A stretch of DNA of 64,000 nucleotides from Fischerella sp. PCC 9605 (GTDB taxonomy: Bacteria > Cyanobacteriota > Cyanobacteriia > Cyanobacteriales > Nostocaceae), in NCBI RefSeq assembly GCF_000517105.1, contig NZ_ALVT01000034.1:365689-429688 (forward strand), written 5' to 3'. A program made the translations under genes and the position numbers. The first letter of the stretch is position 1, and every line of letters starts with the position of its first letter. Below, piece after piece: positions 4,809-28,986 of the stretch. The notes under the pieces were generated by a model. The model worked only from the letters and a program-made list of their open reading frames with translations. It was not told the DNA's origin and made no database searches.

Positions 4809-5093
4809 TTAACAGCCAATATTCGCGCCTAAAGCACGCCAAGTGTTAATACCGACAATCCCATCCACAACTAGATTATGCTTGCTTTGAAAGTCTTTGA
4901 CTGCTTGTTGAGTTTGAGAACCAAAATTAGCATCAAAAGCTATGTTGTATCCATAACGGAGAATCAAAATCTGTTGTAGAAATCTTACTCCTTCACTTAC
5001 TTGACCTATAGCTAGAGTCGGTAGATTCTGTAAAAGTCTCGTTTCAGTGGGAGCAGCAGCAGCGTCACCTCTAGCTTCAATTTGTTGTGGCAT
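4809..5093 (-). CDS. Peptidoglycan-binding domain protein (PG_binding_1)
   Basis: A 94-residue protein. A short polar, Ala-rich N-terminus (QQIEARGDAAAAP) is followed by one PG_binding_1 domain: a conserved GVRFLQQIL helix, GYNIAFDANFGSQTQQAVKDF and the typical close VVDGIVGINTWRAL. Such domains anchor proteins to the cell wall; no catalytic domain and no signal peptide are present. The ATG at 5093 is preferred over an upstream start because GAGGTG sits 6 nt before it. It lies downstream of the CIS cargo genes on the same strand but behind a ~500-bp gap, so operon membership is uncertain. Confidence 0.8.
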   Translation of the reverse strand: MPQQIEARGDAAAAPTETRLLQNLPTLAIGQVSEGVRFLQQILILRYGYNIAFDANFGSQTQQAVKDFQSKHNLVVDGIVGINTWRALGANIGC

Positions 5094-5596
5094 AGTCTGC
5101 ACCTCTATGACTTTGTTTGAAAGTAAGAACATTCAGTTTGTAACCTAGTTACAACTGTAGTTTTGATGCTAAATAAAATTATTTTCTCCCCTTACAATCT
5201 GGATAATAGAGTCTGGTATTGAAAACTTAACATCGGATTTTAATTGTTGAGCAAAAATTGTGTACCCATGTAGATTATTGGTGAGTACACCGCGATCGCC
5301 AATTATGTTGAATCTACTAGTTTGCCATAAAGATTTTGACAGGTTAATGGGCAATACAGTTGGTGCTAGTACTCTTAGTGTCTTAGTGTCTTGGTGGTTT
5401 CAAGATGATCTTTTTCACCACAAAGACACCAAGACACCAAGACAAACCTATCAAAATCAATTTGGTTGAGTACTACAAGTATAGATGTGCGATCGCCTGC
5501 GTCAGCTAGGGCTTAATCAGTTGAAGGGAGATATAGAAGTAAAACATCGTACTTATCAAACATTACAAAATGTCAGCGATCAAATTACAACATTTA
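5094..5596. other. Intergenic region with repeats and a possible gene scrap
   Basis: About 500 bp between the peptidoglycan-binding gene and the first cargo gene. It holds the inverted repeat at 5373-5443 and, on the minus strand (5169-5354), a protein-like open frame without a good start, ending in RGENNFI. That ending shares 21 identical nucleotides with the start of the 237-aa gene at 10619. No RNA gene or clear terminator was seen. Confidence 0.5.
5373..5443. repeat. Inverted repeat of short GTCTTGGTG-type units
   Basis: CTTAGTGTCTTAGTGTCTTGGTGGTTT is followed after ~15 bp by an imperfect reverse complement built of AAGACACC units. The arms are themselves tandem repeats of ~9 bp. It matches the style of dispersed short repeats common between cyanobacterial genes and could form a long hairpin. 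Confidence 0.6.
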
Positions 5597-7228
5597 TTAA
5601 AAAGGAACAGTTACGCCGAGCGAGAACGTGTGAATTTGGCGTGCTTCAGATGTAAGCGGTTGTGTCAACCGATAACCTGCTTCAATGCTCAGGGGGAAGA
5701 CACCGGGATTGTTGGGGATCAAGAACTCAACGCCACCACCGAGCTGCAAGACATAACTCCCGTAAATGTCGGTCGTTTCGTCTGGTCTTGGTTCGCGAAG
5801 TAAAAAACGCCCTGCACCAAACCCTGTTTCAATGCGCCCGAACAGACCGCCGAATCGCTCCGCCCCAAGGCTACCTCCTAAGGTCGTTCGACCCTGAACC
5901 CCAATCATCGCACTGGCGAATTCGTATGGCTTTGTCCTTGACTGTGGTGACTTTAAATTCACGACCTCAGCTATTGTCCCAGCATAATTCCAATCACCTC
6001 CGGCGGTCAAGCGGAAGTGTCCCGCCGCAAGCTCTGCAAGGATACGGCGATATGTCAAGAACGCCATAAAAGTTTGGTCATTGAACGCATACTGAAATGA
6101 CAACTGGTTGCGCCCCTTTCCCATGCAGTAGGCTGACGCCATTTCCGCACGGTAGTGCGTGTCGTCTCCGGGAATACCGCAATTGTGTCCAAGCTCGTGC
6201 ATTAGCGTCTCAGCGAGCCCACGCGTGCCTTGATTATACCCGGATTGGCTGTAAGCGATGTTTTGACCATTGATATCACCACGAGCAAGCTCGTCACTCG
6301 ACGGATTCATCAGTTTCCATATTTGCGCCCTATTAAAAATTTGTTGTAATATGTTTGGGGATGCGTTAGGGCATCGGCGTTGAAAGAATTCATGGCACGC
6401 CGAAAATTTCTTTGGATTGGTAGCTACTTCCCGCACCATCTCGATCGCTTCGTCAACCCGTGCGACATCTTTAGCCGGAACGACAGCTAGTGTAAAGGTT
6501 CCACCGCCTGGACGATTCCAATCTGTTGGCGGTGTTCCTGAGCCGCGTGCCATACGCTGTATAGCAGGTGTGGGTTGGTGGCTCTGTTGCACTACGTGCG
6601 TTAATTCGTGCGCCAATAGCCTCTGTCCTGTGGGCGTTCCTGGCGCATATTGTCCGGTTCCAAAGACGATATTTTGACCGAGCGTATAGGCTCGAGCATC
6701 CACTGCATGTGCCGATTCTACTGCTTTGGCATCTGTATGTACCCGTACCGAACTGAAGTCATGTCCAAAGCGGGATTCCATGAAGGAACGGGTTTCGGGG
6801 TCGAGGGAATAACCGGGAGAGTAGAGGACTTCGTGCACGATGGGCGGTACTTGAGAAGATTCTTGATTTTGACTTGAAGGGGTAACTGGATTGGCGATCG
6901 CCTTCGTCTGAATCGTCTCCTCTTCTTCCTCAGGTTCAACCTGCCGTTGAATCGCTGGTTCTGGCATCTGCATAACTTCGTCAGCAATGCGATCGGCTTC
7001 CTGCTCATATTGATCTCCCGGTTCGCCGATCTTGAGCTTGGTTTGAATCCCCAGTTCTTCCTTACAACGCGGACAACCTCCACCGCAGGCGCATTGGCGT
7101 TGCAGCAGTGGTATCCCTGTCGAAAGGGGGGAGGGATTGTGCGATCGCAGAGTCGGTGCAGATTTTGCCTTGACGAATTTCTGCTTAGTGGAATTGTTAG
7201 TGGGTTGTTTGGTGCCAAGGGTTCTCAT
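5597..7228 (-). CDS. Candidate CIS cargo: DUF4157 domain, second HELGH domain, barrel-like C-terminus
   Basis: A 543-residue protein and the strongest effector candidate here. Residues 41-110 form the leader shared with its two neighbours: Cys46-x-Cys48-GGG-Cys52-PR-Cys55, IQTKLKIGEPGD, an EQEADRIADEVM helix and an acidic stretch. Residues ~128-225 are a DUF4157 (eCIS-core) domain ending in AHELTHVVQQ (His207, Glu208, His211). A second zinc-protease-like motif, MHELGHNCG (His344, Glu345, His348), lies in a separate domain. Residues ~410-543 are glycine- and aromatic-rich alternating strands ending in VTVPF, as in outer-membrane beta-barrels. DUF4157 proteins are established companions and often cargo of extracellular CIS. 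Function beyond that is inference. Confidence 0.8.
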   Translation of the reverse strand: MRTLGTKQPTNNSTKQKFVKAKSAPTLRSHNPSPLSTGIPLLQRQCACGGGCPRCKEELGIQTKLKIGEPGDQYEQEADRIADEVMQMPEPAIQRQVEPEEEEETIQTKAIANPVTPSSQNQESSQVPPIVHEVLYSPGYSLDPETRSFMESRFGHDFSSVRVHTDAKAVESAHAVDARAYTLGQNIVFGTGQYAPGTPTGQRLLAHELTHVVQQSHQPTPAIQRMARGSGTPPTDWNRPGGGTFTLAVVPAKDVARVDEAIEMVREVATNPKKFSACHEFFQRRCPNASPNILQQIFNRAQIWKLMNPSSDELARGDINGQNIAYSQSGYNQGTRGLAETLMHELGHNCGIPGDDTHYRAEMASAYCMGKGRNQLSFQYAFNDQTFMAFLTYRRILAELAAGHFRLTAGGDWNYAGTIAEVVNLKSPQSRTKPYEFASAMIGVQGRTTLGGSLGAERFGGLFGRIETGFGAGRFLLREPRPDETTDIYGSYVLQLGGGVEFLIPNNPGVFPLSIEAGYRLTQPLTSEARQIHTFSLGVTVPF

Positions 7229-7234
7229 AATTTT

Positions 7235-7378
7235 AACCTACTGGCGTGACTGGGCTAATTTGGTGCATAAATAAACTATTGTGGGGTAGGCTAGACAGCC
7301 CGCCCAGAACAGGCAAGATGCCTGTTTCACAAGAAAACCATAATGCACTTTTTTAAGGCAGTCACGCCACTACAAATG
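7235..7378. repeat. Dispersed repeat with terminal GTGGCGTGA-type inverted ends
   Basis: The gap between the first two cargo genes is filled by a repeat. It has CTGGCGTGAC at one end and GTCACGCCACTACAAA at the other, internal TGCATAA/ATAATGCA boxes, and CTTGTG(A)AACAGGC / GGGTAGGCTAGACAGCCCGCC blocks. The same blocks recur in opposite orientation at 58806-59060. It carries no gene and looks like a non-autonomous mobile repeat. Confidence 0.6.
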
Positions 7379-7393
7379 AGTGATTATTGTGCT

Positions 7394-8395
7394 TTATGGG
7401 TTAGAGGAAGGTACTAACTCTGGACAGAAGTCTGCTTTTGTTCCAACACAATCTCCTTTTTCGATCAAGTATTTTTCTATCTCGGTTTTGTATTGATTTA
7501 TTAAGCTTTTATGCTTGTTTGCCAAGCGTTCAAAATCTGCCAATGGCATACCGACCTTTCCAGTAAATCGAGGCACGGGATGCTCTCTCAAGTACTGAAG
7601 AATATCTAACACATGGCTCCCTTCGTGAAATCCTAGGCTCGTTCTACCGGTTTTTATATCCTCGGCTGTTGTTCCTCTTCCATATGCTGAAGGGGCATCA
7701 GGAGAAGTATCAGGTCTGTAATTTGTTTGAATCCAGACTTCATGCTTGTACTGAAAAGATGCTATCCGACCCCCTTTAGATATCCAAGTGATCTCGTCGG
7801 GCAATTTGTATTTTGTTTTAGCAGCACCTGTTAGTGTTGAGTCTGTTGTATCTGGCTTTATAGTTACGGTTAGAGCGCCAATATTATAAACAAATGGAGG
7901 TGAACCTAGGTTAATGCCTAGGGCAATTTCTAAGCTTGTCTGGTTGGCAAGCAGATTGTTAATATACGCTTTGACCGCTACATCGGCTACGCGATCGCGA
8001 TACTTAATGAGTTGATTTCTGGGCAATGCTTTGAGACGAGCAATAATCTCTGCATCGGATAAATCTCTTTCTGTAATTGTGAAGGTATCAAAACGATAAT
8101 TAGTTTGTCCGATTGTAGAAAATGTGTTGAAGAAGTCCCTTCGTTGAATACGGGGTTCTGGTATCTGCATAATTTGGTCGGCAATGCGATCGCTCGGTTG
8201 GTCGATTTTGAGTTTGGTTTGAATCAGAGAAGATTCTTGGCAACGAGGACAACCGCCGCCACAAGCGCAACTGGATTGGCGCTGCAATGCCATACTGGCT
8301 GAAGACCTAGGTTGATCGGGCATCCGCAGCAGGGGAATAGATTTGGTAGTTTCCCTTTTTCTGTGGGAATCTTGTTTGATTGCAAGCGATCGCAT
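7394..8395 (-). CDS. Candidate CIS cargo: shared Cys leader without the DUF4157 core, HEGSH-containing C-terminus
   Basis: A 333-residue protein. Residues ~38-86 carry the same leader as its neighbours (Cys43-x-Cys45-GGG-Cys49-PR-Cys52, IQTKLKI, SDRIADQIMQIPEP). Where the others have an acidic linker and the DUF4157 domain, this one jumps straight to an unrelated region (~90-333). That region has mixed strands and LGFHEGSHVLDIL, where His257-Glu258-x-x-His261 fits a zinc-protease HExxH. No family is recognised for it. It lies between the two DUF4157 genes, 20 bp downstream of the next cargo gene. An effector role is inferred from the leader and position. Confidence 0.7.
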   Translation of the reverse strand: MRSLAIKQDSHRKRETTKSIPLLRMPDQPRSSASMALQRQSSCACGGGCPRCQESSLIQTKLKIDQPSDRIADQIMQIPEPRIQRRDFFNTFSTIGQTNYRFDTFTITERDLSDAEIIARLKALPRNQLIKYRDRVADVAVKAYINNLLANQTSLEIALGINLGSPPFVYNIGALTVTIKPDTTDSTLTGAAKTKYKLPDEITWISKGGRIASFQYKHEVWIQTNYRPDTSPDAPSAYGRGTTAEDIKTGRTSLGFHEGSHVLDILQYLREHPVPRFTGKVGMPLADFERLANKHKSLINQYKTEIEKYLIEKGDCVGTKADFCPELVPSSNP

Positions 8396-8415
8396 AGTTT
8401 GATTACTCTTGAGGT

Positions 8416-9885
8416 TTACCGAAATGCCTTGTTGAATAGTTCGTCGAGTTTGCCAGGTAAACCTTTGATATTGGCTAAGTCAACGTTGATCATCACCTGG
8501 AAGCCTGGGGCAGTTTCGGCAGGTGTTGTTTTGGGTAAACGAGCTTGAGTAATTGCGAACCCACCTTCAGATGTTGGTGTAACTTCTGGCAACGGACTGA
8601 CGGTTGAAACCGTGCCAGCGCTTAGACTAATTCCCTGGTAGATTTTCAACTTGAACATCCCGCCTGTGGGTTGCAAGTCCTTGGTGGCTAGGTCATACTC
8701 AAACTTCAAATCAAAAGAGGCATCAAGGGGGGGGACTTTTGGATAGCGTTTTCGCAATAATTTTAGGTAGGGTGTCAATGTCAGGGTGGTGCTCAAGTCT
8801 AACGTTTTGTCATCTTTCGCCCCTGCTTCAGGTCGCTTGAATTTGAAACTTGATAAAGGCATGTAGGGAATCCAAGATAGGGGAGGCACTATCAGATTCT
8901 TGCCATCCATGAAATCTACTACCCTCTTTCTGCCTTGTTTATCGGCAGCGAAACCGGCTCCTAGCGTCCCTAAAGTCACCGCGCCAAAACCGATCGAGAC
9001 TCCCTTTTCTGTGGGCGATAGGCTTTGCCATGTGTTCTTTAACTCCTTCGTCACCTGGGTTGTCACTTCTTTCTTGAGTTCCTTAAACTTTGGGTTTTTA
9101 GAGTCAAGACTATCAACGACAATATCTAAACCTTGCTGAAGTACTTTAGCAGCGTCGGTTTCCTCCTGCTTGGGTTGAGCTGCCTTTTCAGGATCTTCCT
9201 GGTTTTCCTCTCGCTGGAGGGTGTGAGGTTCACTTCGCTTGGTTTGCTGGACTGTGTGGACGAGTTCATGGGCTAATAATCTCTTGCCAGATAGTGTTTC
9301 CGGGGTGTATTGTCCCTCATCAAATACCACATTCTGTCCCAAGGTATAGGCTCTTGCATTGAGCATCCGTGCTGAGGCGATCGCAATTGGATCTGTATGT
9401 ACCCGCACTTGGCTGAAATCTTTCCCCAAGCGGGATTCCATGAACAGCCTGGTCTGAGAATCTAGAGGAGATCCGGGCGATCGCAATACTTCATCCACAA
9501 TCGACGGTGCTTGAGAGACTCCTGTTTGATGGGTGGGAGGCGCGATCGCCTGCCTCTGAACCATCTCCTCTTCTTCCTCTTCTTCCTCCTCAGTTTCCAT
9601 CTGACGTTGAATAGTTGGCTCTGGCATTCGCATCACCTCGTCGGCAATGCGATCGGCTTCCTGCTCGTATTCATCTCCCGGTTCGCCGATTTTGAGCTTG
9701 GTTTGAATTGCAGCAGTTTCCTGGCAACGCGGACAACCACCACCGCAGGCACATCTGTTACTACTGCGTTGCAGTGTATTTTCCAAAAGCCCGCTGCGGC
9801 GCTGGATTAAAGGGCGACTAGCATTGTTCAGTCCGATCTTCGCCGCTGACTCTGGTTTGTTCTTTGTACTCAATGCCAAGTTCAT
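8416..9885 (-). CDS. Candidate CIS cargo: DUF4157 domain with unknown C-terminus
   Basis: A 489-residue protein. The leader has Cys45-x-Cys47-GGG-Cys51-PR-Cys54, then IQTKLKIGEPGD, EQEADRIADEVM and a run of glutamates (~99-107). The DUF4157 domain (~125-215) ends in AHELVHTVQQ (His206, Glu207, His210). After a charged linker, residues 294-314 form a hydrophobic glycine/alanine stretch (VSIGFGAVTLGTLGAGFAA) that could insert in a membrane. The remainder is beta-rich with no family recognised. It is the first of the three cargo candidates in transcription order, 20 bp after the 237-aa gene. A toxin or anchoring role is inference. Confidence 0.75.
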   Translation of the reverse strand: MNLALSTKNKPESAAKIGLNNASRPLIQRRSGLLENTLQRSSNRCACGGGCPRCQETAAIQTKLKIGEPGDEYEQEADRIADEVMRMPEPTIQRQMETEEEEEEEEEMVQRQAIAPPTHQTGVSQAPSIVDEVLRSPGSPLDSQTRLFMESRLGKDFSQVRVHTDPIAIASARMLNARAYTLGQNVVFDEGQYTPETLSGKRLLAHELVHTVQQTKRSEPHTLQREENQEDPEKAAQPKQEETDAAKVLQQGLDIVVDSLDSKNPKFKELKKEVTTQVTKELKNTWQSLSPTEKGVSIGFGAVTLGTLGAGFAADKQGRKRVVDFMDGKNLIVPPLSWIPYMPLSSFKFKRPEAGAKDDKTLDLSTTLTLTPYLKLLRKRYPKVPPLDASFDLKFEYDLATKDLQPTGGMFKLKIYQGISLSAGTVSTVSPLPEVTPTSEGGFAITQARLPKTTPAETAPGFQVMINVDLANIKGLPGKLDELFNKAFR

Positions 9886-10629: not shown

Positions 10630-13600
10630 CTAACCTCGTCCAAAGCTACCCAATATGCTGGTGTAGCGTTCACAAATGTCTCTGCTGAAGAGTTCCAACA
10701 ACACCGTGTTAGGTTGGTTCACCACCATATTTCCCCAACCACGGATCAGCAAGCAGTGGGTTGACTGATTATCTGTGGTCATATTCATTATCCCCAATGT
10801 AACCGCAGAGAATAGCGCATTGAGAATGCCTTCCTTAAAACGGTTATCACTAACCCGAACCGAGAACCCAAACAGTATTGCCTGGGACAGCACAAAATCA
10901 TCAAGCAGGCTACAGTCACATTGGTTATTGTGAAAGCCTATATCATCCAAGCTCAAAATCAAGATTGACGATAAGGACAGACTCAAACCCGTCTCCAGCA
11001 AATCCAGGACACACTGATTGTTACTAAACAAAACATTGCCGTTAGCCAGGATTTGACCGAGGCGCAGATCATCCAGTCCCCTTTGAGGCATCATTACGGT
11101 ATTATTACTCACTGTCGGTACATGAGTCATATACCCCAGTTGACCATTTCTGACAGCCAAGAAGGCTAGTAACTGTCCATAAAGCTCGTTGGACAAGCCC
11201 AGATTCAGGATTGCCACAGTAGAAGCGATAAACGACGGCGCTGGAGTTTTGAGAATCACGCCTCGGCTAGTAAATTGATTCCCCACCACTGAAACTGCCC
11301 CCAAAGCAGTGAGGGAAAGTGCCTGTCCCAAGGGTACGCTGACAATATTGTCATGCACTTTGATGGCTGGCATCCCATTCTGACCAGGTAAACCCTGTCG
11401 AAATAGGTCGACAGGAACGGTAGGAACAACACCAAACACAATATTAATCCCGCCGCGCCGTTCATCTTTGGCAGCATTTGCAGGTTGATTGTTCTTAGCA
11501 CCGTTATTTAAAATCCGGTTGCGGGAGATTTCAATACCCTCGCCATGTAGAATAAAAATGCCGCATATCGGCTCCAAATGATTGAGACCGTTGTTTTCAA
11601 TCACGTTATCCCAAATTACGAGGTATGATCCATCGGCTAGAGCAATACCGCCATAGCCCATGCTGTTAATCATGTTTTGGGGGATGTCTTCCAAGTCGCG
11701 GTGCAAGCATTGGCGAATCTCGTTGCCGACGATGGTGAGATAATCAACGGTGATAAACTCATCTTGGGCATCGAGATTGAAAAAATGAATGGCGCTAATG
11801 CCACTCAAGCCCATGTCGAAAATGCGGTTGCCCTCGATGTGGATGTCTCGTAGTGGTGCACCTGCGGAAAATTCGGGAGTGCGATCGCCTCGATCGGGAG
11901 GAATGTAAACGCTACCTGGTCTTTTTGGTCTACAGGGGTCGCCAACATCAATTGCCCAGGCGATAAATACACCGATGTCCTTGCCAGTTTGGTCACGGAT
12001 GACAACGCTACCAAGGCTGATACCATGACCCATACCCCCCTGGATCAGATTATCGATCACCCGCACTCGCTCACTCCCACCGCCCAATTGCAAGCCACCA
12101 AGTCCGGCTGTGGCTTTTAGTGGTGTGCCTGCTACAAATGCTGCTAAAGATGGAGATGAAGTCGTTTGCTGCTCAGGTATAACATGAATCACGTTACCCT
12201 CGATTAACGAATCCTCACCCACGAAAAATATTGCAGGCCAGGAACTGGTAACATCTTTCATTTGAATGCGGCAGTCGCGGATAGTGATTAACTCGCCTAC
12301 GTGGGTTTCAATGGCGCTGCGGGTGACAGCTTGGATGTGCAAATCGGCAAGGGTAATTTCCCGTGAGGGTCGCTGTCTAGGGGCGCTGATATTTGCAATC
12401 GGAACTGGCTCGGTTAAGTTGTTGTCAATTAGGATACCAATACCCGTATCATCGGCGGTAATGGCTAAGGACTCGATGTGGATATTTTGAGAAACTGCGA
12501 TGTGGATTACAGGGTTGGGAGTTGCAGAGGTGATGTGGCTGCGATCGCCACAGCCTCTGATAGTAATATTTTGCTTATCTTTTATCAGTATATTCTCGGT
12601 GTAGACTCCAGGCAAAACGCAAATTTGACCGCCAGCAGCAGGCAAGTGATTCACTGCCTTTTGGATAGAATCAAAATCACCGTGACCTTGCTTACCGACG
12701 CTGTAGGTACAGCAGTTGCCTAGCCGCGTCAGTGGCTGGAAAATCCGCCGACAATCCTCGATTTGACCGTCGGCAAAGGAAATCTTACGGTTAGCATTCC
12801 AACTCAGAATCGCCAACGGCACGCGATGGTAGTGGATACCTTCAGGCGGTTGCTTGTGGATTAAGATTTGTGGATTACCAATTTCCCCCGCCCGGACTGC
12901 AAAAGTCCAATAGTCCCCCGGCATATACTTATCTGGGTCGGCAGAATCAAATGCCAATTCAATCCCATCACCTAAAAGATTCGGGTTAGGTGCAGCAAGA
13001 AAATCGCTAATCTTTTTGATACCGTTCCATAGACGAAAAAATACATAGTTGCCAGCAGCAGGAATTGCACCGAAAATCGGCGCATTAGGTAGTTGCAGTT
13101 CGTTGCCATTCAGCGTCACTGTGGCACCATAGGTTACTTTCCAATACCCTAAACTTTCATCATACTCAATCGCTTCCAGATAGAAGCTACTCCAGCCAGA
13201 GGAGGCGATCGCCGACAAATTGCCAGTAATCCTAACTTTGTTATCCTTAAATTCGCCCCGCCCCACCAGTCCGCCGTTGAACTGAGACCATTTAAACATC
13301 GGTGGCGTATTGCTGTTGACTTGGGCAATCTCGATGCGATACAGGTTATGTTCAAATCCGGTGTATCCTCCCCCAGCAACTACCGGACAATCACCATTCT
13401 TGGAAATCGGAGGTTGTAAGGAAACAGTTAACTTACCTTTGTTGTCAAAGTTGTCTTGGAGTTTATCGCTAATATTGCTACAGGTATCTTGATTATCCAA
13501 CCTCAGCAACTTCAGAGCTATTGCCGTATAAACTCTTTCTGTTGTGTCTGGCCCACCCAATGCCGGTTCGATTAGCCGATCGGGTATTTGAAACCCATTG

Positions 13601-14001
13601 ATGGCTTCCCGCCAGACTTCCAGAATTACTGCATCCCGAATGCCGTCACCTGGAGGTTGAGAAGGCGGTTTTAAGTAGGTAGCTTGCCTGGAAACTTTTG
13701 TTTTTTCGTCCAAATACACCAACCAACCATCTGCCCAGATTCTGCCTGATGCTAAGGTAAGTTGGACTTTGCTATCACTATCAACCCCAGCCTCTAGGAC
13801 TTTAAACGCATCCGGTTGATCGGCGGGAACGGCTGCTACTCCACCACCAATAATGTCTTGACCTGCTGTATCTTGCCAGTTATTTGTTATCCGTGTTTGA
13901 GCATTCCAGTCAGTGTCAAGCAAAACTTTGCCCTGTTGTTGCAGAACTCCATTAAAATTATCTTTTTGCTCAAAATACCAGTTAGAAAAATCGCCATCCA
14001 T
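10630..14001 (-). CDS. DUF6519/right-handed beta-helix protein, putative CIS fibre
   Basis: A 1123-residue protein. The N-terminus (MDGDFSNWYFEQKDNFNGVL, QQGKVLLDTDWNAQ) is the DUF6519 type found with phage-tail-like systems. From ~430 there is a long parallel beta-helix: the start QICVLPGVYTENILIKDKQN is followed by many NNxI and GNxI turns, as in NosD/pectate-lyase-like proteins. Such rods serve as receptor-binding fibres or tailspikes. The C-terminal ~200 residues are hydrophobic and less regular. AGGAGG precedes the ATG. It follows the tail-protein-I-type gene by 16 bp. A fibre role is inferred from fold and context; a beta-helix enzyme is the alternative. Confidence 0.75.
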   Translation of the reverse strand: MDGDFSNWYFEQKDNFNGVLQQQGKVLLDTDWNAQTRITNNWQDTAGQDIIGGGVAAVPADQPDAFKVLEAGVDSDSKVQLTLASGRIWADGWLVYLDEKTKVSRQATYLKPPSQPPGDGIRDAVILEVWREAINGFQIPDRLIEPALGGPDTTERVYTAIALKLLRLDNQDTCSNISDKLQDNFDNKGKLTVSLQPPISKNGDCPVVAGGGYTGFEHNLYRIEIAQVNSNTPPMFKWSQFNGGLVGRGEFKDNKVRITGNLSAIASSGWSSFYLEAIEYDESLGYWKVTYGATVTLNGNELQLPNAPIFGAIPAAGNYVFFRLWNGIKKISDFLAAPNPNLLGDGIELAFDSADPDKYMPGDYWTFAVRAGEIGNPQILIHKQPPEGIHYHRVPLAILSWNANRKISFADGQIEDCRRIFQPLTRLGNCCTYSVGKQGHGDFDSIQKAVNHLPAAGGQICVLPGVYTENILIKDKQNITIRGCGDRSHITSATPNPVIHIAVSQNIHIESLAITADDTGIGILIDNNLTEPVPIANISAPRQRPSREITLADLHIQAVTRSAIETHVGELITIRDCRIQMKDVTSSWPAIFFVGEDSLIEGNVIHVIPEQQTTSSPSLAAFVAGTPLKATAGLGGLQLGGGSERVRVIDNLIQGGMGHGISLGSVVIRDQTGKDIGVFIAWAIDVGDPCRPKRPGSVYIPPDRGDRTPEFSAGAPLRDIHIEGNRIFDMGLSGISAIHFFNLDAQDEFITVDYLTIVGNEIRQCLHRDLEDIPQNMINSMGYGGIALADGSYLVIWDNVIENNGLNHLEPICGIFILHGEGIEISRNRILNNGAKNNQPANAAKDERRGGINIVFGVVPTVPVDLFRQGLPGQNGMPAIKVHDNIVSVPLGQALSLTALGAVSVVGNQFTSRGVILKTPAPSFIASTVAILNLGLSNELYGQLLAFLAVRNGQLGYMTHVPTVSNNTVMMPQRGLDDLRLGQILANGNVLFSNNQCVLDLLETGLSLSLSSILILSLDDIGFHNNQCDCSLLDDFVLSQAILFGFSVRVSDNRFKEGILNALFSAVTLGIMNMTTDNQSTHCLLIRGWGNMVVNQPNTVLLELFSRDICERYTSILGSFGRG

Positions 14002-16367: not shown

Positions 16368-19034
16368 TCAACATACCTCCTTGGATGGAGCTAGGGAAGT
16401 GAGCAGATTGAGATGAGCTTTGTGGAGACTTAGCACTTTATCTTGCTCACAGGTGACGACGCCAGGCGGGTTGAGGACACTAGGAGAGTGCAAAGTTAAG
16501 GGATTCTCTGCGTAACCCAGAGAACTCAGGGCATTGACTTGCGCCCACACCACACCCTCGACATTTTGAATAGTGGCTTCGATGCGGGTGGCGTATTCGT
16601 GCTGTCCGAATTGACGTTGCCGCAGTCCCAACAATCCGGCTGAGCCATCAATGCCGTCGCCTTCTTCGCCAGTAACACCCAGCGCTTGTTTAATCGCTTT
16701 TTTGACTAGTTCCTCACGGAAAGTTGGGTCAATCGAAGTGATCGCATCCAGATAAATGTATTGCAAGTTACCCCGAATTACTTTGATCGGGAAACGCTGC
16801 GCCCCACGACAACGGTTGTAGTGATTGAGGATGCGTTCCACCTCATCGGCTTCTTTTTCTCTGCCTGTTGCCATGAGAATGGTAAGCACAACGCTGGGAA
16901 TATTATCAACCAGTTGCCAAGCGGCGGACACTTTAACAACGCCACCGATGGCGAGAGTCTCACTTTCAAAATCTTGCAGACTCACAAGCCGACCGAGGCT
17001 TTGAATCTTGCCGGGAGCCGCTTGTTTGGCATTTTCCCCGGTTTCTGGCTGGGAGCCGCCGGAAACAACGCCTGGTAGCCAAATTTTCTCCAATCGCTCT
17101 AGTTTGCCTCCTGCTTGCACGGTGGTTTCTTCCTGCAATGCCCCATGCGCCCCTATCCCCGTGCGATATTTGGCAATGACATTTTTTATACCTGAAGGTA
17201 GGCGCGAGCTGGTTTTGCCGTCGCCAAATTGCACCCAGCTTTCGCCATTGGCATCTTCCTGGACAATGTAGATTTCTTCTTGAGAACCGCGATTAAAGAA
17301 GGAAGGAACCCGCCTCCACAGTCGGTCATTGACGTAAATTTGTAATTCGGGAACTTCTGGTGGAGTTTCACCCACCGAATTGAGATAAGTTAATGGTGAC
17401 TTTGGCAGTTTGAAGGTTTGGAAAGCTTGGCGACTATCACCGTTTCCCAGGATAGCTTCTTTTTCAGTGTTGCCTTGAGTCGCCTCGATTAAGTTGCCAT
17501 AGACGGTGACGTTGGGATTTTCTAGAGGAAAATCTTTGAGTTCAAAGACAGACAGAGATGGATTAAGGGTGAGTTTTCGTAAGGTGACGCGGTTTTTATC
17601 GTCGGTGTTGCTGGGGTGAATGGTGATGACGACCTGCTCACTTTGACCATCACGGGTAAGTAAGAGCGATCGCCGATCCAATTTCTTATAGGAATCAGCA
17701 TCACCATCATAGTAAAGTTGAGATTTGTCTGCGGTGTCAACGGCTTTGCGGACAGATTTGAGGATAAATTTCTCGCCAATCACCTCCTGAAATTCCACGC
17801 TGCGAATATCGGTATAAATCAACAACGCGAGGGCAACCTCTTTATCCAGTTCAACTACTGTCGTACCTCCAGTGATAGCACCGAGTTTGCCGCTTGCTGA
17901 ACTCACCTTAGTGATTTTTCTTTCAAAGAAATAGGTTGGTTTCGCTGGTGAATTGTCATCAATGAATTGCAGGCTGACCAGCATAGTTGAGCCGATGGAA
18001 ATATCTGCAACTTCACTGTCTAGGGGAAAAGACTGCAAATTGGGCAATTCTGGCGTATAAACAGCACTAGATAAGATAGTAGAGTTTATTGTGTTGGGTA
18101 AGTAATATATAGGGTGGACAAACGCAACCTGTGGTGAAGATTGATACATAATTTCAGGATATTCTCCGACTCTGCTCCTGAAATCCACATCTTTTTGCAC
18201 AGCTACACTACCCTCAAGCACCGTTTCTTTCGGTGGTGCATTGTAGCCGAAATGCCGAAATGACCTGCCGAGTTTGTAAGCTGTAATCTCATCGTCAATG
18301 TCTCCTCCCTGCCAACTGCCCTCAATGGTAATTTCGGTTTCGCCTAAGAGTTCGCGGGTGTTCTCAACTACCACAATCTGTCTTGCAGTTTGGGGATTTG
18401 TCGAGGACGCTACCAACATCAACCTGTCACCCTCGTTCAGCTTGAGGTTCATATCGCTCAAATCTGAGGTGGCGATCGCAAATTTTTTCGTGCCATTGGT
18501 AATATCTGGATGATAGGAGGGGCGATATAAATAAAATTGCGAGAGTGCTGGTTCAGCGACAAACTCTTGCACCGTTTCAAATTCCGCTGGTTTGTCCAAT
18601 CCCGTCACTTGCGCCTTCACCGGGAAACCCGCCGGCACTACCACTGGTTTGTTTCCCCTAACTCCAAAGGCGAAAGTCGCTTTGCCTCCCACACCTGGCG
18701 AGAGATGGTAGCCAACAAGCCGCACCAAATCTGCAATACTTTCTCGCCATTGGGCTGTTCTCAAAAAAGCTTCATTGGCGTAAATTTCTTGGTAGAAAGT
18801 GAGGATATCACTGAGAATTGCTGCACCTTCTAGTAAGGCGATCGCTGGATCGTCAGGTTCCCTATGCGTCCAAGCTGCCAAAATAGCAACTTTATTTAAG
18901 TTCCGCAACAATGCTTCTCGAAAGTCGGCATAAGTACCAATGCGGTAGTCGATGTGAGACAATCCAGGCCGATTGTAAATTCTCTTGGGAAATAGTAGCG
19001 GCTCTATGCAATCATTGCGACAGTCAGGTTTCAT
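16368..19034 (-). CDS. Putative CIS baseplate assembly protein (second J-type, Afp12-like)
   Basis: An 888-residue baseplate wedge protein. The N-terminal part has the family pattern of putative baseplate assembly proteins: RNLNKVAILAAWTHREPDDP, ALLEGAAILSDILTFYQEIYANEAFLRTA and LVRLVGYHLSPGVGGKATFAF. Later come YTLR-free beta domains, VQFGDGKTSSRLPSG and IKNVIAKYRTGIG, as in gpJ-like wedges. It overlaps the upstream J-type gene by 4 nt (ATGA), showing translational coupling. It presumably forms the outer wedge together with the 939-aa protein. Assignment rests on sequence pattern and order; Afp equivalence is inference. Confidence 0.85.
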   Translation of the reverse strand: MKPDCRNDCIEPLLFPKRIYNRPGLSHIDYRIGTYADFREALLRNLNKVAILAAWTHREPDDPAIALLEGAAILSDILTFYQEIYANEAFLRTAQWRESIADLVRLVGYHLSPGVGGKATFAFGVRGNKPVVVPAGFPVKAQVTGLDKPAEFETVQEFVAEPALSQFYLYRPSYHPDITNGTKKFAIATSDLSDMNLKLNEGDRLMLVASSTNPQTARQIVVVENTRELLGETEITIEGSWQGGDIDDEITAYKLGRSFRHFGYNAPPKETVLEGSVAVQKDVDFRSRVGEYPEIMYQSSPQVAFVHPIYYLPNTINSTILSSAVYTPELPNLQSFPLDSEVADISIGSTMLVSLQFIDDNSPAKPTYFFERKITKVSSASGKLGAITGGTTVVELDKEVALALLIYTDIRSVEFQEVIGEKFILKSVRKAVDTADKSQLYYDGDADSYKKLDRRSLLLTRDGQSEQVVITIHPSNTDDKNRVTLRKLTLNPSLSVFELKDFPLENPNVTVYGNLIEATQGNTEKEAILGNGDSRQAFQTFKLPKSPLTYLNSVGETPPEVPELQIYVNDRLWRRVPSFFNRGSQEEIYIVQEDANGESWVQFGDGKTSSRLPSGIKNVIAKYRTGIGAHGALQEETTVQAGGKLERLEKIWLPGVVSGGSQPETGENAKQAAPGKIQSLGRLVSLQDFESETLAIGGVVKVSAAWQLVDNIPSVVLTILMATGREKEADEVERILNHYNRCRGAQRFPIKVIRGNLQYIYLDAITSIDPTFREELVKKAIKQALGVTGEEGDGIDGSAGLLGLRQRQFGQHEYATRIEATIQNVEGVVWAQVNALSSLGYAENPLTLHSPSVLNPPGVVTCEQDKVLSLHKAHLNLLTSLAPSKEVC

Positions 19035-22321: not shown

Positions 22322-22654
22322 TTATCGGGAAGATACCTTAATTTGAGTGTTAACGATAGTGGCTATCCCCTGAGTAGCTCCCTCGGCATTAATGCATTTA
22401 CCAATGCTGGTTTTGACCAGTACAGCAGTGCCATTTACTGTTACTTTTTCTCCTCCAGCCGACCATTCAATTCGCACACAAGGAGAGTATTTCGTTCCCA
22501 CGGTAAATGGACAGCCAGCAACAGGATGAATGTCTGTTTCCAACAACACAGGGGTACCATCAGCAAAGACTTTTGTATTCTTTGTAAAGAGTATCGCTTG
22601 CCCGCCGTGAGGACATATAATTTTGCTTTTTATAGTGAGGTTATTTCCTGGCAT
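22322..22654 (-). CDS. PAAR-like spike-tip protein
   Basis: A 110-residue protein that would cap the central spike and sharpen it for membrane piercing. It opens with IKSKIICPHGGQAILFT and has paired small residues and cysteines (HPVAGCPFTVG, YSPCVRIEW), then VTVNGTAVLVKTSIGKCINAEG. This fits PAAR-like (DUF4280-style) tip proteins with Cys/His metal ligands. Its start overlaps the stop of the spike gene by a single base, so the two are probably translated together, as expected for a spike and its tip. Confidence 0.8.
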   Translation of the reverse strand: MPGNNLTIKSKIICPHGGQAILFTKNTKVFADGTPVLLETDIHPVAGCPFTVGTKYSPCVRIEWSAGGEKVTVNGTAVLVKTSIGKCINAEGATQGIATIVNTQIKVSSR

Positions 22655-23190
22655 TAGCCCACCTTCTTGACTTCAAATGCACCATTATTGATATTCACAC
22701 CGCTTTTTGATAGCACAATTTGGGTAGAGCCGATTTTGAGGGTAATGTCATTATCTGTCATAGTGATTTCTGCACCTCCAGAATGAAGAAATTGCAGCTT
22801 TTTATCACCATCATCGAGAATTATTTTGTGTTTCCCTGATGTCGCCAGAACCCTAGTATCTTTATCACCAGGCTGAGGAATTTCTCCTTTTGCCCACCAG
22901 CAACCACTCCAGATGGGACAAGAAGGATTCCCAGCTTCAAATTCGATCCAAACTCCATCACGTTTTTCAGGAAGCATGACAAAGCCGTGATTCTTCCCAG
23001 CAAAAGGGACGGAAGGTAATGCCCACGGTGAATTCTCCTCTCCATAAACAGCGGGAACCTTGGCAATAATTTGACCGAGATGTTCACCTTCACCCACCTC
23101 CTCAACAATGCCGCGATATTTGCCGAAATAACAACAACGTTTGTATTCCGCTAGTTCGACGATGAGTTTTTCTATGTCTGCGTTAACCAT
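22654..23190 (-). CDS. gp5/gpV-type spike protein (Afp8 C-terminal half)
   Basis: A 178-residue spike protein with the OB-fold of phage baseplate protein V/gp5: YFGKYRGIVEEVGEGEHLGQ, IIAKVPAVYGEENSPWALPS, GFVMLPEKRDGVWIEFEAGN and PSCPIWSGCWW. The C-terminal ~50 residues form short repeated strands (GGAEITMTDNDITLKIGSTQ) typical of the trimeric beta-helix needle. The first ATG overlaps the hub gene stop. In Afp/PVC systems hub and spike are one VgrG-like chain; here they are separate genes. Confidence 0.88.
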   Translation of the reverse strand: MVNADIEKLIVELAEYKRCCYFGKYRGIVEEVGEGEHLGQIIAKVPAVYGEENSPWALPSVPFAGKNHGFVMLPEKRDGVWIEFEAGNPSCPIWSGCWWAKGEIPQPGDKDTRVLATSGKHKIILDDGDKKLQFLHSGGAEITMTDNDITLKIGSTQIVLSKSGVNINNGAFEVKKVG

Positions 23191-24626: not shown

Positions 24627-25292
24627 CTAAAATGGCACTAATTCAATTGCTGCTTGCACAGTGTTCGCTAAATTCAAAGCTGCTTGAGCATCCTTGGCAA
24701 TTTGGGAGTATTTCAGTGCCCCTTTGCCAACTTTATCGTTAGAACACCTGTCGATATGATTAATAGTCTTCAAACTCAGAGAAACTTCTGCTCGAACGGG
24801 ATTCAGTAATTGGTCGTATTGTTGCTCAGTAATGCTCATGGATTGAATGGTTACAGGCAAAACTTTGGTTGCACCCCAAATAAATAGAATCTGTGGATAT
24901 TTTTTTCTAGGAATTGGTTGCTCAGAAGAATCGCCACCAATTCCTAGAGCATCACCAATTGCATCGATTGCTGCACCAATAAAGCCACCATTTTCGCTGG
25001 GATAAACCATTTTTTCTAAGGCTGCTAGTTGCGGGCCAATTCCCAATGTTAACGCCAAGATATTACCTGAATTCAATTGTTCAGCGGCGTCAAATTCAGC
25101 TTTGAACGAGATTGTCTCGGTGGGAATTTCGCCAGCCTGATTCGTCTCCCGCGCCGTTCTACCGCTTGGTCTTTGAGGGATTTGGATGGCACGTGACATT
25201 GTGTCGGGATTGAATTGAAAAATTACAACGTTGGGTATTGGCCCTAGAAAATCTGTACCATATTCAATTAGCGCTCCCCTTAAATAAGGCAT
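24627..25292 (-). CDS. CIS tube-adaptor protein (Afp7 N-terminal type)
   Basis: A 221-residue protein with the pattern of the CIS_tube N-terminal domain: VIFQFNPDTMSRAIQIPQRP, a variable loop, FKAEFDAAEQLNSG, ALEKMVYP, PQILFIWGATKVLPVTIQSM and EQQYDQLLNPVRAEVSLSLK. These proteins form the first ring between hub and inner tube and start tube polymerisation. The C-terminal ~30 residues (ALKYSQIAKDAQAALNLANT) are helical. The LysM part is encoded by the next gene. Confidence 0.88.
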   Translation of the reverse strand: MPYLRGALIEYGTDFLGPIPNVVIFQFNPDTMSRAIQIPQRPSGRTARETNQAGEIPTETISFKAEFDAAEQLNSGNILALTLGIGPQLAALEKMVYPSENGGFIGAAIDAIGDALGIGGDSSEQPIPRKKYPQILFIWGATKVLPVTIQSMSITEQQYDQLLNPVRAEVSLSLKTINHIDRCSNDKVGKGALKYSQIAKDAQAALNLANTVQAAIELVPF

Positions 25293-25336: not shown

Positions 25337-25612
25337 TTATCTATCTCCAATTTCCTGTACAATTGCCTGAGTTACTGCACTGGTGATCGCACTTTTTAAG
25401 TGATGAGAATTTTGACCATTTGTAGATTTGATGTTACCCAAATTAATAGAGTCGATATTGATAACTTTATCTGGTGTAAAAAGACTTTGGTATTCAGCAA
25501 GTCTTACCAGCAATTCCTCACCCAAACCTGCAACTAAAGTATGGGCTGAATCATCTGTAACTCCTTGAAGGCGAATTGCCAGTCGATCAATAGTAATCTT
25601 TGGACTTTTCAT
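25337..25612 (-). CDS. Small CIS-locus protein of unknown function (91 aa)
   Basis: I start at the ATG at 25612, which has AAGGAA ~7 nt upstream, inside the 3' end of the ATPase gene (26-nt overlap). The N-terminus is basic (MKSPKITIDRLAIRLQG), followed by an amphipathic helix (GLGEELLVRLAEYQ) and a Ser/Asn-rich linker, and it ends in an alanine-rich helix (AITSAVTQAIVQEI). No family is recognised. A short helical protein between the ATPase and the tube adaptor is often seen in CIS clusters; a chaperone or assembly role is inference. Confidence 0.7.
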   Translation of the reverse strand: MKSPKITIDRLAIRLQGVTDDSAHTLVAGLGEELLVRLAEYQSLFTPDKVINIDSINLGNIKSTNGQNSHHLKSAITSAVTQAIVQEIGDR

Positions 25613-27779
25613 TTTCAATTCCTTCGATAATCTTGGCGTAGGAGCCGAATTGCTCCAGACTCACAGAGCGATGTAGTTTGTCATACTCCCGTTTAATTGC
25701 CACAATCACCCGTTCCATAGTTAATAGTGGGGACTGGTTATGATTGGGAGTTTGTAAACAAGCATTGAAAATAATCGAACGGATATGTCCGCCAGCTAGT
25801 TGAAATTGTCTAGCCAGAAAATCAAAATCTAGTTGCGAGGCATCAACTTGATCGGGAATAACTCGCATCCAAATTTGTTTTCTTTCCAGCACATCGGGCA
25901 GTGGAAAATCAACTATGTAACGCAATCTCCTTAAAAAAGCTTCATCCAAATCTTTCTTACGGTTTGTTGCCAAAATTGCCAAACCTTTAAACCGTTCCAT
26001 GCGTTCTAGCAAGTAACTAATTTCTAGATTTGCGTAGCGATCGTGAGCATCTTTTACTTCGGTTCGCCGTCCAAACAAAGCATCAGCTTCATCAAAAAAG
26101 AGAATTGTGTCTGAGATATCTGCTAAATCAAACAGCCTTTTGAGATTTTTCTCGGTTTCGCCGATATATTTGTTGACAACCTGAGACAGGTCGATGCGGT
26201 ACATGGGCAGATTTAGCTTAATCGCCAGAATCTCAGCCGCCATTGTTTTACCTGTACCAGGCGAACCAGCAAACAGCACGGAAATGCCACATTCATTCCA
26301 GGCTCTAGCCGTTCCCCAGCGATAATGAACTTTGGTGAGGGACTTCATCGCCTGATAGATTTCCTCGAATAAAAGTTTTTGTTTGGGAGGCAGCACCAAT
26401 TCTTTTTCTGTAAATCGAGGCGTGACAGACTGAGCTAATTCACCGATATCCAGATCTAACTCGGCTCTGCACGCTGCGATTAAATCGGTTTCTGTAAGTT
26501 GCCCGGTATGTTCTTGCAATCCTGCACAGATTGCCTGAATAGTTTGTTTTTCGTAGCGAAATCGGCGAGAGCATTCGGCAATAGCTTTGTCTAATGCCTG
26601 GTTTGGAGGCGAGAGTGCTTGCTTCCAGCAATTAATGCGATCGCTATAGGATAAGTTTGGTACATCAATTATTGGCAGCAGCAGACTTAAGGGAATTTCG
26701 GCTAGATCCTTGCGTTCGCGAATGCCGAGGAAAATTGTCACCGGAATCGATTGCAGAGACAGCAGGTAGCCATAGGGATGAGATTTTTCGCAGGTTCGAG
26801 TGCAAACAAAATCGTCAGGTATGTATAAATCTACGCCATGCAACCAGCACAGAGTCGCCACAGAACGCAAATAATCGCTGCTGTCGCATAAGGTTGGATT
26901 TCCCTGGAGTTCTACAATCTGTCTTTGGGTGAGTTGAGCTATTCCCTGGATAATTTCGGCGTAATCTGAACCACTTGCACCCCGCACGGGGACGATACGT
27001 AGGGCATCATTGGGTTTGGCATTCAATCGGTTGGCAACTATACGGGTGCTTTCAGGCAGACGGGGACAATCAATAGTCAGAGGCGCTAAAATCTGGGGGA
27101 GTGACGAATGGGGAAACAGCAGGCGGTTGGCAATTAGGGGGGGTGTTGTAATTGGACTGTGCCAATCGATGGCGGCTTGAGCATGGCTGGATTGTTGCAA
27201 CAATCCGTAACGCCATAATGAGTGAGCGGGGTCTGCGATCGCCAGCACCTTTTCTGGCTCATCCCACAGTTGTTGAGCCAGCGCCAAAGTAGGCTGTGTG
27301 GCATTTACATCATTTAGGCAAGCAGCAATGACTTCTCCTACGGCATTATCAAAAGCCACTGCCAGTCCCAAAGCCAAAATAAACGCGGCAGTGTCATCTA
27401 AATTTAAGGTTGCGACTACCCAACCAAAAGACCCCCTTACCACTGGATGCTCAACATGTGGCAAATCTACCCGCAGCTTGTCGGTTAAATATTTGCCAGT
27501 TAGATCGGTTTGGTAGAATTGACATTTTTGTTCCCAGTAGCGACTCATATCGAGACTGGCGGTTAATTTGTCACCGATGTTAGGCAGTGCAGAATTAATT
27601 GATGGAATTAGAGATGGGGAATTTTCCCCCTCTCCCCCTCTTAATTGCCGCCAGCGCCAGCAAATCTCTCGTCGCAATCTAATGGTGACTTGCCGCAGCC
27701 AATAGTTAGCACAGACATCCTCAGCAAGTAGACCAGGCGAAAAGGTAATAAATTCTTTTTGGTTACTGAATGTGTTCAT
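25587..27779 (-). CDS. AAA+ ATPase of the CIS (Afp15 type)
   Basis: A 730-residue protein. Residues ~1-450 are the long N-terminal region typical of Afp15/PVC15 ATPases (helical, with a Cys-rich loop DDFVCTRTCEKSHPYGY). The AAA+ module follows: Walker A GSPGTGKT (505-512), Walker B with Asp563-Glu564 in ILFFDEADALFG, sensor AILATNRKKDLD and arginine residues in AFLRRLRYIVDFP. It should help assemble the particle or load cargo in the cytoplasm. The start overlaps the tube-terminator gene by 4 nt (ATGA). Confidence 0.93.
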   Translation of the reverse strand: MNTFSNQKEFITFSPGLLAEDVCANYWLRQVTIRLRREICWRWRQLRGGEGENSPSLIPSINSALPNIGDKLTASLDMSRYWEQKCQFYQTDLTGKYLTDKLRVDLPHVEHPVVRGSFGWVVATLNLDDTAAFILALGLAVAFDNAVGEVIAACLNDVNATQPTLALAQQLWDEPEKVLAIADPAHSLWRYGLLQQSSHAQAAIDWHSPITTPPLIANRLLFPHSSLPQILAPLTIDCPRLPESTRIVANRLNAKPNDALRIVPVRGASGSDYAEIIQGIAQLTQRQIVELQGNPTLCDSSDYLRSVATLCWLHGVDLYIPDDFVCTRTCEKSHPYGYLLSLQSIPVTIFLGIRERKDLAEIPLSLLLPIIDVPNLSYSDRINCWKQALSPPNQALDKAIAECSRRFRYEKQTIQAICAGLQEHTGQLTETDLIAACRAELDLDIGELAQSVTPRFTEKELVLPPKQKLLFEEIYQAMKSLTKVHYRWGTARAWNECGISVLFAGSPGTGKTMAAEILAIKLNLPMYRIDLSQVVNKYIGETEKNLKRLFDLADISDTILFFDEADALFGRRTEVKDAHDRYANLEISYLLERMERFKGLAILATNRKKDLDEAFLRRLRYIVDFPLPDVLERKQIWMRVIPDQVDASQLDFDFLARQFQLAGGHIRSIIFNACLQTPNHNQSPLLTMERVIVAIKREYDKLHRSVSLEQFGSYAKIIEGIENEKSKDYY

Positions 27780-28975
27780 GGTACTACTAGGTCTACTTCT
27801 GGACTATTTTTTGCTTGCTGACCGTTCACCCTGAGAATCACCCGATACTTGCCTGCGGGTATGGGGTTTTCCTGTTTGATAGGTACGCGCCTGTGAGTTT
27901 GGGGTGTTAATGTTGCTAACTCATCAAACAGCTTCACGACGCTGCCATTTTGATACAGCGCTACAAAAACGTCATCTTCGTCTGTTCCCAGTAACTCACC
28001 CGTCAAGTCAATGTTGCCGTAGATTTTCGATGCTGGATCTCCTGGGTTTACACGAGCAAGGTTATTTGGTACGACGCTAGTCAGCAGTGGTAGGAGGTTG
28101 CCCACCAAAAGATTGCTGGCACGCTTGCGTCCGTTGGGCAAGGTTTGGATTACAGACACTGGATGGCTGCCAGCAGAAATAACATTCCCGCCGCTAATCG
28201 TGCCATTTATCAAGCATTGCAAGGTATCCGATGACTGTCCGGTGATAGGTAGTTCTATAGTGCCCAGACGTACAGACAAATTTGCCAGATTCAGGTCGCT
28301 TCCTCGAAGGGTAATAGTGTCTCCGGGTGTAAATTTTGGAGGAGCGATCGCACTCAGCGTTGGCCCGCCAAAGGGAAACACGGAAATCTGGATTCCCTTT
28401 TCACCGATGACCTCGTTAGCGAGATAATCAATTCCCACCAATAGGGAATAAGACGACGGTTCGCTCGTAGCAATCATTACAGGTCTGATTTGAAAGGCGA
28501 CGGAACAGCGGTATTTCTCCTCCGAACCCTGCATTAATTTCGAGAGCAGATCCGCCGAAGCCTCATCAAAGGTAATCTTTAATACTTCAGGATTATCTTT
28601 AAGGGCGTTGAGTGTAGTTAGAGAACCGCTCAAAGGCAGAAAGGCCAGTTCTTGCAGCGCCCGCATTCCTTCGCCCAAGAATTCATGAGCTTGGATAGTA
28701 TCACTTTCTCCTTGCTCATCAAAAGCAGTCAGCAGATACTTCAACACCAGCCATAATGGTGCAGGTTGTCCCTCATCCAATGATTTATTTCTCAGGCTGG
28801 CGTCTAACTGAATCTCATAAAGAAACAGATTCAGCCTGGGATTAGTCACGTTAGGGGGTGGTTCTGGCTTACCAACGGTGACATCGTTTACTGTCACACC
28901 TGGATGAACGTGCAGGCGATCGCGCAACAAGCGTGTCACTGCACCAATAGCTTTTCCTGTATCTGCAAGTGCCAT
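27776..28975 (-). CDS. DUF4255 (Pvc16 N-terminal) protein with Ig/TIG domains, tube terminator type
   Basis: A 399-residue protein. The first ~190 residues are DUF4255/Pvc16_N: ADTGKAIGAVTRLLRDRL, NLFLYEIQLDASLRNKSL, LVLKYLLTAFDEQ and AHEFLGEGMRALQEL. This family caps the inner tube and ends polymerisation. Residues ~200-390 form two Ig-like/TIG beta domains (SAIAPPKFTPGDTITLRGSD, HPVSVIQTLPNG, IPAGKYRVILRVNGQQ). The ATG at 28975 is preferred to the TTG at 28984. The TIG domains may decorate the distal end of the particle. Confidence 0.88.
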   Translation of the reverse strand: MALADTGKAIGAVTRLLRDRLHVHPGVTVNDVTVGKPEPPPNVTNPRLNLFLYEIQLDASLRNKSLDEGQPAPLWLVLKYLLTAFDEQGESDTIQAHEFLGEGMRALQELAFLPLSGSLTTLNALKDNPEVLKITFDEASADLLSKLMQGSEEKYRCSVAFQIRPVMIATSEPSSYSLLVGIDYLANEVIGEKGIQISVFPFGGPTLSAIAPPKFTPGDTITLRGSDLNLANLSVRLGTIELPITGQSSDTLQCLINGTISGGNVISAGSHPVSVIQTLPNGRKRASNLLVGNLLPLLTSVVPNNLARVNPGDPASKIYGNIDLTGELLGTDEDDVFVALYQNGSVVKLFDELATLTPQTHRRVPIKQENPIPAGKYRVILRVNGQQAKNSPEVDLVVP

Positions 28976-28986
28976 TTTGCACAATC

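Follow-up and report, generated by a model that had tools for sequence, protein, structure and literature searches.

According to the parts of the literature considered here, the known loading signals of contractile injection systems (CISs) lie at the N-terminus and work together with an AAA+ ATPase (PMC11495950); signals of the Photorhabdus virulence cassette (PVC), which like those of the antifeeding prophage (Afp) are read with Pvc15, rarely show homology and are sorted into similarity groups only (PMC11495950), and a 2024 machine-learning study detected no conserved loading sequence (PMC11297309). DUF4157 proteins occur in or with the particles of AlgoCIS (Cgo1 and Cgo2) and of the thylakoid-anchored CIS (tCIS) of Anabaena (Alr3312 and Alr3311), as far as the consulted text of PMC8894135 and PMC8894136 goes. 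Here we describe a CIS locus known from its genes alone, in a 64,000-nucleotide stretch of Fischerella sp. PCC 9605 (contig NZ_ALVT01000034.1, positions 365,689 to 429,688; hereafter the window), in which three adjoining effector candidates share a ten-residue, four-cysteine element, CACGGGCPRC (the knuckle). Across genomes, this element follows one CIS lineage, and it may serve as a loading label.

The candidates A (5597..7228, 543 amino acids), B (7394..8395, 333 amino acids) and C (8416..9885, 489 amino acids) are adjoining minus-strand open reading frames (ORFs) that follow the CIS operon at its 3' end. In a six-frame scan of the window, the pattern C.C[GSAN]{2,3}.{0,2}C..C had exactly three matches, one in each ORF and all reading CACGGGCPRC (A, residues 46–55, 7064..7093; B, residues 43–52, 8240..8269; C, residues 45–54, 9724..9753; all minus strand), and as a matter of judgement rather than of a shuffle test we regard ten identical residues in three neighbouring genes as far beyond chance. 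At seven of its ten codons the knuckle shows synonymous differences between these genes, so the motif seems to be kept at the protein level and not to be a recent DNA copy. The original prediction, made from the sequence alone, had each protein begin with QRQ or QRS, one further residue and this motif, followed by IQTKLKI and an acidic helix. The identical motif and the IQTKLKI behind it stand in all three, but the motif starts at the residues just given and not at the protein start, the gap from LQR to the first cysteine is 1, 3 and 4 residues, and the helix, entire in A and C, is seven residues shorter in B (profile matches to the leader of knuckle, linker and acidic helix: A, 6938..7105; B, 8138..8287; C, 9598..9774; minus strand).

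Behind this leader the three proteins part ways, as had been predicted. A and C continue into eCIS_core (PF13699, formerly DUF4157; A, 122.5 bits, 6575..6805; C, 104.2 bits, 9238..9468; cut-off 22; minus strand) and B matches no Pfam family; the C-termini fall into three separate BLASTP clusters, with a reprolysin-like match under the Pfam cut-off in A and, in B, a domain with an HExxH motif kept among its relatives. No PF13699 match beyond A and C was found in the source genome, and profile searches found no knuckle there beyond the three genes. Toxins associated with extracellular CISs (eCISs) are characterised by eCIS_core in the protein or a neighbouring gene, which holds for A and C by Pfam and for B by neighbourhood, and by a place at the 3' end of a CIS operon, which all three occupy; the swapped C-termini are a further likeness. 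The candidates differ in their four-cysteine element, of which the consulted parts of PMC8213781 and PMC11297309 make no mention, and in B, which lacks eCIS_core yet keeps the element. We met no four-cysteine motif in eCIS effectors in the openly available literature, a scope that excludes subscription papers and supplementary files, and an earlier description is possible.

The same layout recurs in a wider family. With residues 36–95 of C as the query, 357 of 370 candidates had E ≤ 0.001, and 120 of these were listed; they were picked by leader similarity, and leader identity among them therefore carries no evidential weight. The four cysteines keep the same spacing in all 120 (118 fit the pattern; CPCDGGCPLC and CPCDGGCPSC are the two exceptions), PF13699 is present in 110 and absent in 10, and the knuckle precedes the core in those that have one. 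Together with the three window proteins, the 120 give 74 C-terminal clusters, of which 51 have a single member, which bears out the polymorphic effector layout originally proposed. The segment in front of the knuckle is basic (mean charge +2.3 over residues 6–21 in 62 leaders), so that with its N-terminal place and its CIS operon containing an AAA+ ATPase the leader resembles the PVC and Afp loading signals; those signals share little homology, however, whereas the motif described here is fixed, resembles a metal site and recurs in different phyla. Among the core-free knuckle proteins, three loci from several Pseudomonadota (L049, L080 and L095) are alike in sequence, and in the two of them that were scanned aspzincin (PF14521) scored 30.1 and 28.0 bits (cut-off 30). 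A related phage protein on four viral contigs (L154, L156, L157 and L158; frames of 195–261 amino acids, two cut by the contig end) has CACGG[TK]CPVC in mid-protein, and nothing in these frames points to an eCIS effector.

A strict degenerate DNA pattern for the motif, run over GTDB genome contigs, returned at least 120 stretches, a part of the whole, with 156 matches: 94 in eCIS_core frames (median position residue 47.5; residues 30–65 in 62 of the 94), 39 in short chance-like frames and 23 in long core-free frames, which when read by eye comprised 14 core-free leader proteins, two MrfA-type helicases, four frames cut by the stretch end and three chance-like frames. For a genome-level test, 72 of the 78 motif loci were kept, representing 67 genomes (the other six came from records or organisms already represented; L146 was counted among the motif loci despite its 99-amino-acid frame, and L118 and L147 were kept in the chance group though their short frames resemble knuckles). 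Pvc16_N (PF14065) was present in 56 of the 67 motif genomes (55 over the cut-off) versus 9 of 41 chance or MrfA genomes (Fisher P = 1.8e-10). A gp19-type tube gene was found in 6 of the 11 motif genomes without Pvc16, and one or the other of these genes in 62 of 67 motif genomes versus 14 of 41 chance or MrfA genomes. A tie between motif and CIS had been anticipated; it is supported, but as a close though not unbroken link to one CIS lineage and not to CISs in general.

The lineage emerged from genomes with several CISs, in several of which one type of Pvc16 had most of the knuckle genes on its contig. Of 24 knuckle-linked loci in a 61-protein Pvc16 tree, 23 fell into a single clade of 24 rows (support 100/99; the remaining row is unlabelled), and the knuckle label required 3 changes versus 19.1 in shuffles; some of the 'no knuckle' labels were based on the genome rather than on the same contig, and the knuckle profile later found none in those genomes. 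A Pvc16 profile of the clade scored at least 239 bits inside it and at most 84 outside, and a close version detected the lineage Pvc16 in 47 of the 67 motif genomes (at least 217 bits; next 83.6) versus none of 9 CIS-bearing chance genomes; the 20 motif genomes outside the lineage comprised 9 with other Pvc16 only and 11 without Pvc16. Lineage genomes span at least five phyla (including Pseudomonas, Nodosilinea, Mycolicibacterium, Nitrospira and a Bacteroidetes metagenome-assembled genome).

The association also appeared when genomes were chosen irrespective of the knuckle. For an independent draw, an order (250 genomes) and a family (348 genomes) were sampled around two genomes known to carry the motif and were searched for the lineage Pvc16. 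Apart from six motif genomes already known, the lineage Pvc16 turned up in four new genomes, and another 16 had only weaker, non-lineage matches; a knuckle-only profile matched 4 of the 4 new lineage genomes versus 0 of the 16. Among CIS genomes from the phylum of the window the same profile matched 0 of 31, and all 50 Pvc16 places in these lie outside the lineage (20 as placed in the tree; 30 by their profile scores, none above 48.9 bits). It also matched none of 13 genomes without a lineage-profile match; among the controls it found 7 of 7 positives and 2 of 9 chance genomes, in both cases through the same short frames for which they had been included. On 30 contigs, 72 of 75 listed knuckle matches lay 17–31 kb from the lineage Pvc16 (median 20.7 kb), the same place as in the window; the 75 were listed by hand as profile matches covering the cysteines on contigs with lineage Pvc16, leaving out other contigs and the loci L097 and L113 of genome G360. 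In seven loci the knuckle lies behind the helix (L043, L070, L074, L082, L088, L093 and L113), all but L113 in genomes without the lineage Pvc16. A leader profile that included the helix was rejected as a knuckle survey, most of its matches covering the acidic helix alone: its count of 24 of 292 genomes is a count of the helix, and its readable loci held no knuckle outside the window genome. G127 was likewise rejected as a second knuckle genome, the knuckle profile having found none there. Genome G342 (Cyanobacteria bacterium UBA8803) had five Pvc16 matches, one of them a short fragment, and 19 leader or helix matches spread over many contigs.

Within the lineage, the knuckle accompanied every core-bearing effector frame examined. 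In a stop-to-stop search of 20 lineage effector islands and the window, CxCx3CxxC stood upstream of the core in 53 of 53 eCIS_core frames, and none of the 38 core-bearing frames taken from other-lineage genomes or loci had it there. One genome with five Pvc16 loci (G355) repeated this division internally, with six knuckle-bearing core effectors at its lineage locus and four knuckle-free ones at three other CISs. The effectors of one CIS lineage thus have an N-terminal element in common that those of other lineages lack, apart from the exceptions listed below. Across the 53 frames the four cysteines and the GG are invariant and the proline is kept in 94%, with no column outside the knuckle exceeding 1.9 of 4.3 bits. 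The strongly conserved unit across phyla is therefore the ten-residue CxCGGxCPxC and not a leader with IQTKLKI and helix, so that of the common leader first proposed only the knuckle is retained. A CxxC pair occurs upstream in 9 of the 38 core-bearing frames of other lineages, and other-lineage effectors at five loci (L004, L030, L011, L032 and L163) have a two-cysteine CxxC near the helix that may be a half-knuckle.

The core-free protein B separates the knuckle from the domain behind it. All 23 of its listed relatives have HExxH in the C-terminal domain, and 21 of the 23 lack the knuckle, which is carried by the two closest relatives alone; the third closest has a short N-terminus, perhaps truncated, and the N-termini of the remaining 20, which include Jatrophihabitans and Chitinophaga proteins, are without a knuckle, although PF13699 is present in 14 of these proteins. 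The predicted toxin domain of B is found in knuckle-free relatives, and the same domain therefore sits behind differing N-termini. AlphaFold2 modelled this domain with a mean predicted local distance difference test score (pLDDT) of at least 85 in each ten-residue block of residues 171–320, and structure comparison returned no solved structure clearly matching it.

A solved MrfA chain contains CPCHDGCPSC, spaced as in the knuckle, and we take the four cysteines of that chain to hold the metal in the structure. The four-cysteine domain of the MrfA family is described as zinc-binding in the consulted text of PMC12458937. Given the spacing shared with MrfA, the four cysteines of the knuckle would hold one zinc ion. 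The MZB zinc-binding domain of MrfA/YprA helicases has CxCx3CPxC with identical spacing; because MZB sits in the C-terminal part of the helicase and its window match is under the Pfam cut-off (PF09369; C, 16.4 bits, cut-off 24.2; no match listed for A and B), the resemblance is likely convergent. In the models, the N-terminal 50 or so residues are predicted to be disordered, as in a PVC-type signal (pLDDT below 50 over residues 1–112 of B and, except for residues 6–8, 1–44 of C).

Upstream of the effector candidates, the CIS operon runs on the minus strand. It includes a DUF6519/beta-helix protein near its end (10630..14001), two TIGR02243-like baseplate-assembly genes (16368–19034, at 146.5 bits just under the cut-off of 155.8, and 19031–21850, over it at 187.2 bits), a spike with a Phage_base_V domain match (22654–23190), a second spike gene that is Cis8-like by position only (23190–24314), a CIS_tube-like protein under the Pfam cut-off (24627..25292), an AAA+ ATPase that is Pvc15-like by position and domain (25587..27779), the Pvc16-type tail terminator with a TIG domain that served as lineage marker for the tree (27776..28984), a gp19 tail tube (30889–31419) and a sheath (31443–33881). 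Several of these are themselves marks of the lineage: the N-terminal 480 residues of the AAA+ ATPase and the second spike gene were each present in 23 of 23 lineage regions versus 0 of 37 others, and by tblastn the baseplate genes 19031–21850 and 16368–19034 were present in 22 of 23 versus 2 of 37 and in 16 of 23 versus 0 of 37, respectively. The lineage tube and sheath had median scores of 259 and 739 bits inside the lineage versus 69 and 171 bits outside. Nearness to the Anabaena tCIS varies with the component compared: the window's sheath is nearer to other CIS sheaths (236.6 bits to the best match versus 121.7 bits to Anabaena All3325), but the best solved match of the window tube is Anabaena All3324 (39.9 bits). 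Downstream of A, a 107-amino-acid ORF (4809–5132, minus strand) reads by eye like a peptidoglycan-binding domain.

Taken together, these results incline us, by a slight balance, to the view that the knuckle is a zinc-binding loading label read by a lineage-specific part of the machine, with the domains behind it swapped, because it follows the machine and not the toxin domain and occurs without eCIS_core. The N-terminal 45 or so residues and the knuckle would be engaged first, in the producing cell during loading; the cargo protein would then be threaded or docked into the particle, and its C-terminal domain would act after injection. The reader might be the AAA+ ATPase (25587–27779), through its lineage-specific N-terminal region, or another lineage-specific part such as the second spike gene (23190–24314), and since that spike gene is equally lineage-specific, which tells against a firm assignment, the ATPase is a candidate only. 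More broadly, and with confidence somewhat short of even, we suggest that each CIS lineage reads its own address label, here a minimal ten-residue zinc knuckle, and that toxin domains change lineage by exchanging N-terminal badges; swapping the leader alone would then be enough to transfer a toxin domain between CIS lineages.

Several observations weigh against a lineage-specific label. The models place low confidence at the knuckle itself (pLDDT approximately 55 in C and 42 in B), and in some proteins it follows the acidic helix instead of preceding it. The original prediction had named the motif's being common in CIS-free genomes as telling against it, and 5 of the 67 motif genomes had neither a Pvc16 nor a gp19-type tube match, including a chromosome-level Phycisphaerales genome with a knuckle and eCIS_core gene (L076; CP070827). 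Nine more of the 67 carry non-lineage Pvc16 only, and the outsider on the tree (L180; G335, Nitrospiria) has three knuckle effectors next to a non-lineage CIS. As to position, one knuckle gene (L097 of G360, outside the list of 75) lies approximately 7 kb from Pvc16, three knuckle matches in G345 (two on contig C22 and one on C1) are remote from its lineage locus, and further knuckle matches on other contigs occur in G334, G357 and G362; all four of these genomes are fragmented assemblies. The comparisons have limits of their own: the islands that gave the 53 frames were placed on known knuckle matches and knuckle proteins served to train the core hidden Markov model, which nevertheless gives the 38 comparison frames 62–116 bits; those 38 all come from the window's phylum, and many share a genome with other CISs but not closely; and the 16 non-lineage genomes of the draw were counted whether or not they have effectors. 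Finally, shared ancestry of lineage and knuckle could give part of the pattern, and co-occurrence alone is no proof of recognition.

Carried to its end, that last point would make the motif a relic of common descent, hitchhiking with one lineage's effectors and playing no role in recognition. The lineage is indeed a clade, but its genomes span at least five phyla, and descent alone sits poorly with four cysteines and a GG invariant in 53 of 53 frames beside columns of at most 1.9 bits; we give this explanation very little credence. Equally improbable, in our estimate, is a role for the knuckle as prodomain or cysteine switch to a peptidase-like eCIS_core. The core has an HExxH motif (in the part of PMC8213781 considered) and the knuckle stands before the core wherever the listed leader proteins have one; against this, the core is missing from 10 of the 120 listed leader proteins and from 14 long ORFs elsewhere (by eye), and 38 of 38 cores of other lineages do without a knuckle.

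CxC and CxxC pairs can also form disulfides, and the motif ends a segment of low model confidence, so that it might act after injection, as a redox- or zinc-responsive fold for unfolding, refolding or trafficking in the target cell. Against this, the motif tracks the CIS lineage of the producer and not the C-terminal domain, and the domain of B is found behind knuckle-free N-termini; we consider such a role distinctly improbable. Closer to the loading label is the idea that the knuckle docks onto the spike, the baseplate or the wall of the tube, with cargo carried on or in the particle without being read by the AAA+ ATPase. This would suit a second spike gene as lineage-specific as the N-terminal region of the ATPase (23 of 23 versus 0 of 37 for both) and the higher scores of tube (259 versus 69 bits) and sheath (739 versus 171 bits) inside the lineage; yet PVC N-terminal signals act with the ATPase Pvc15 (in the consulted text of PMC11495950) and AlgoCIS cargo sits in the tube lumen (in that of PMC8894135), and we regard docking as unlikely, if well short of far-fetched.

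If true, the reading of the knuckle as a lineage label would make it the first conserved sequence code for how CISs select their cargo. As a motif of ten residues that is fixed, open to mutation and linked to one lineage, the knuckle puts that selection within direct reach of experiment. Searches for the knuckle could reveal unrecognised effectors without eCIS_core, and where one genome encodes several CISs the knuckle could allot effectors to one of them.

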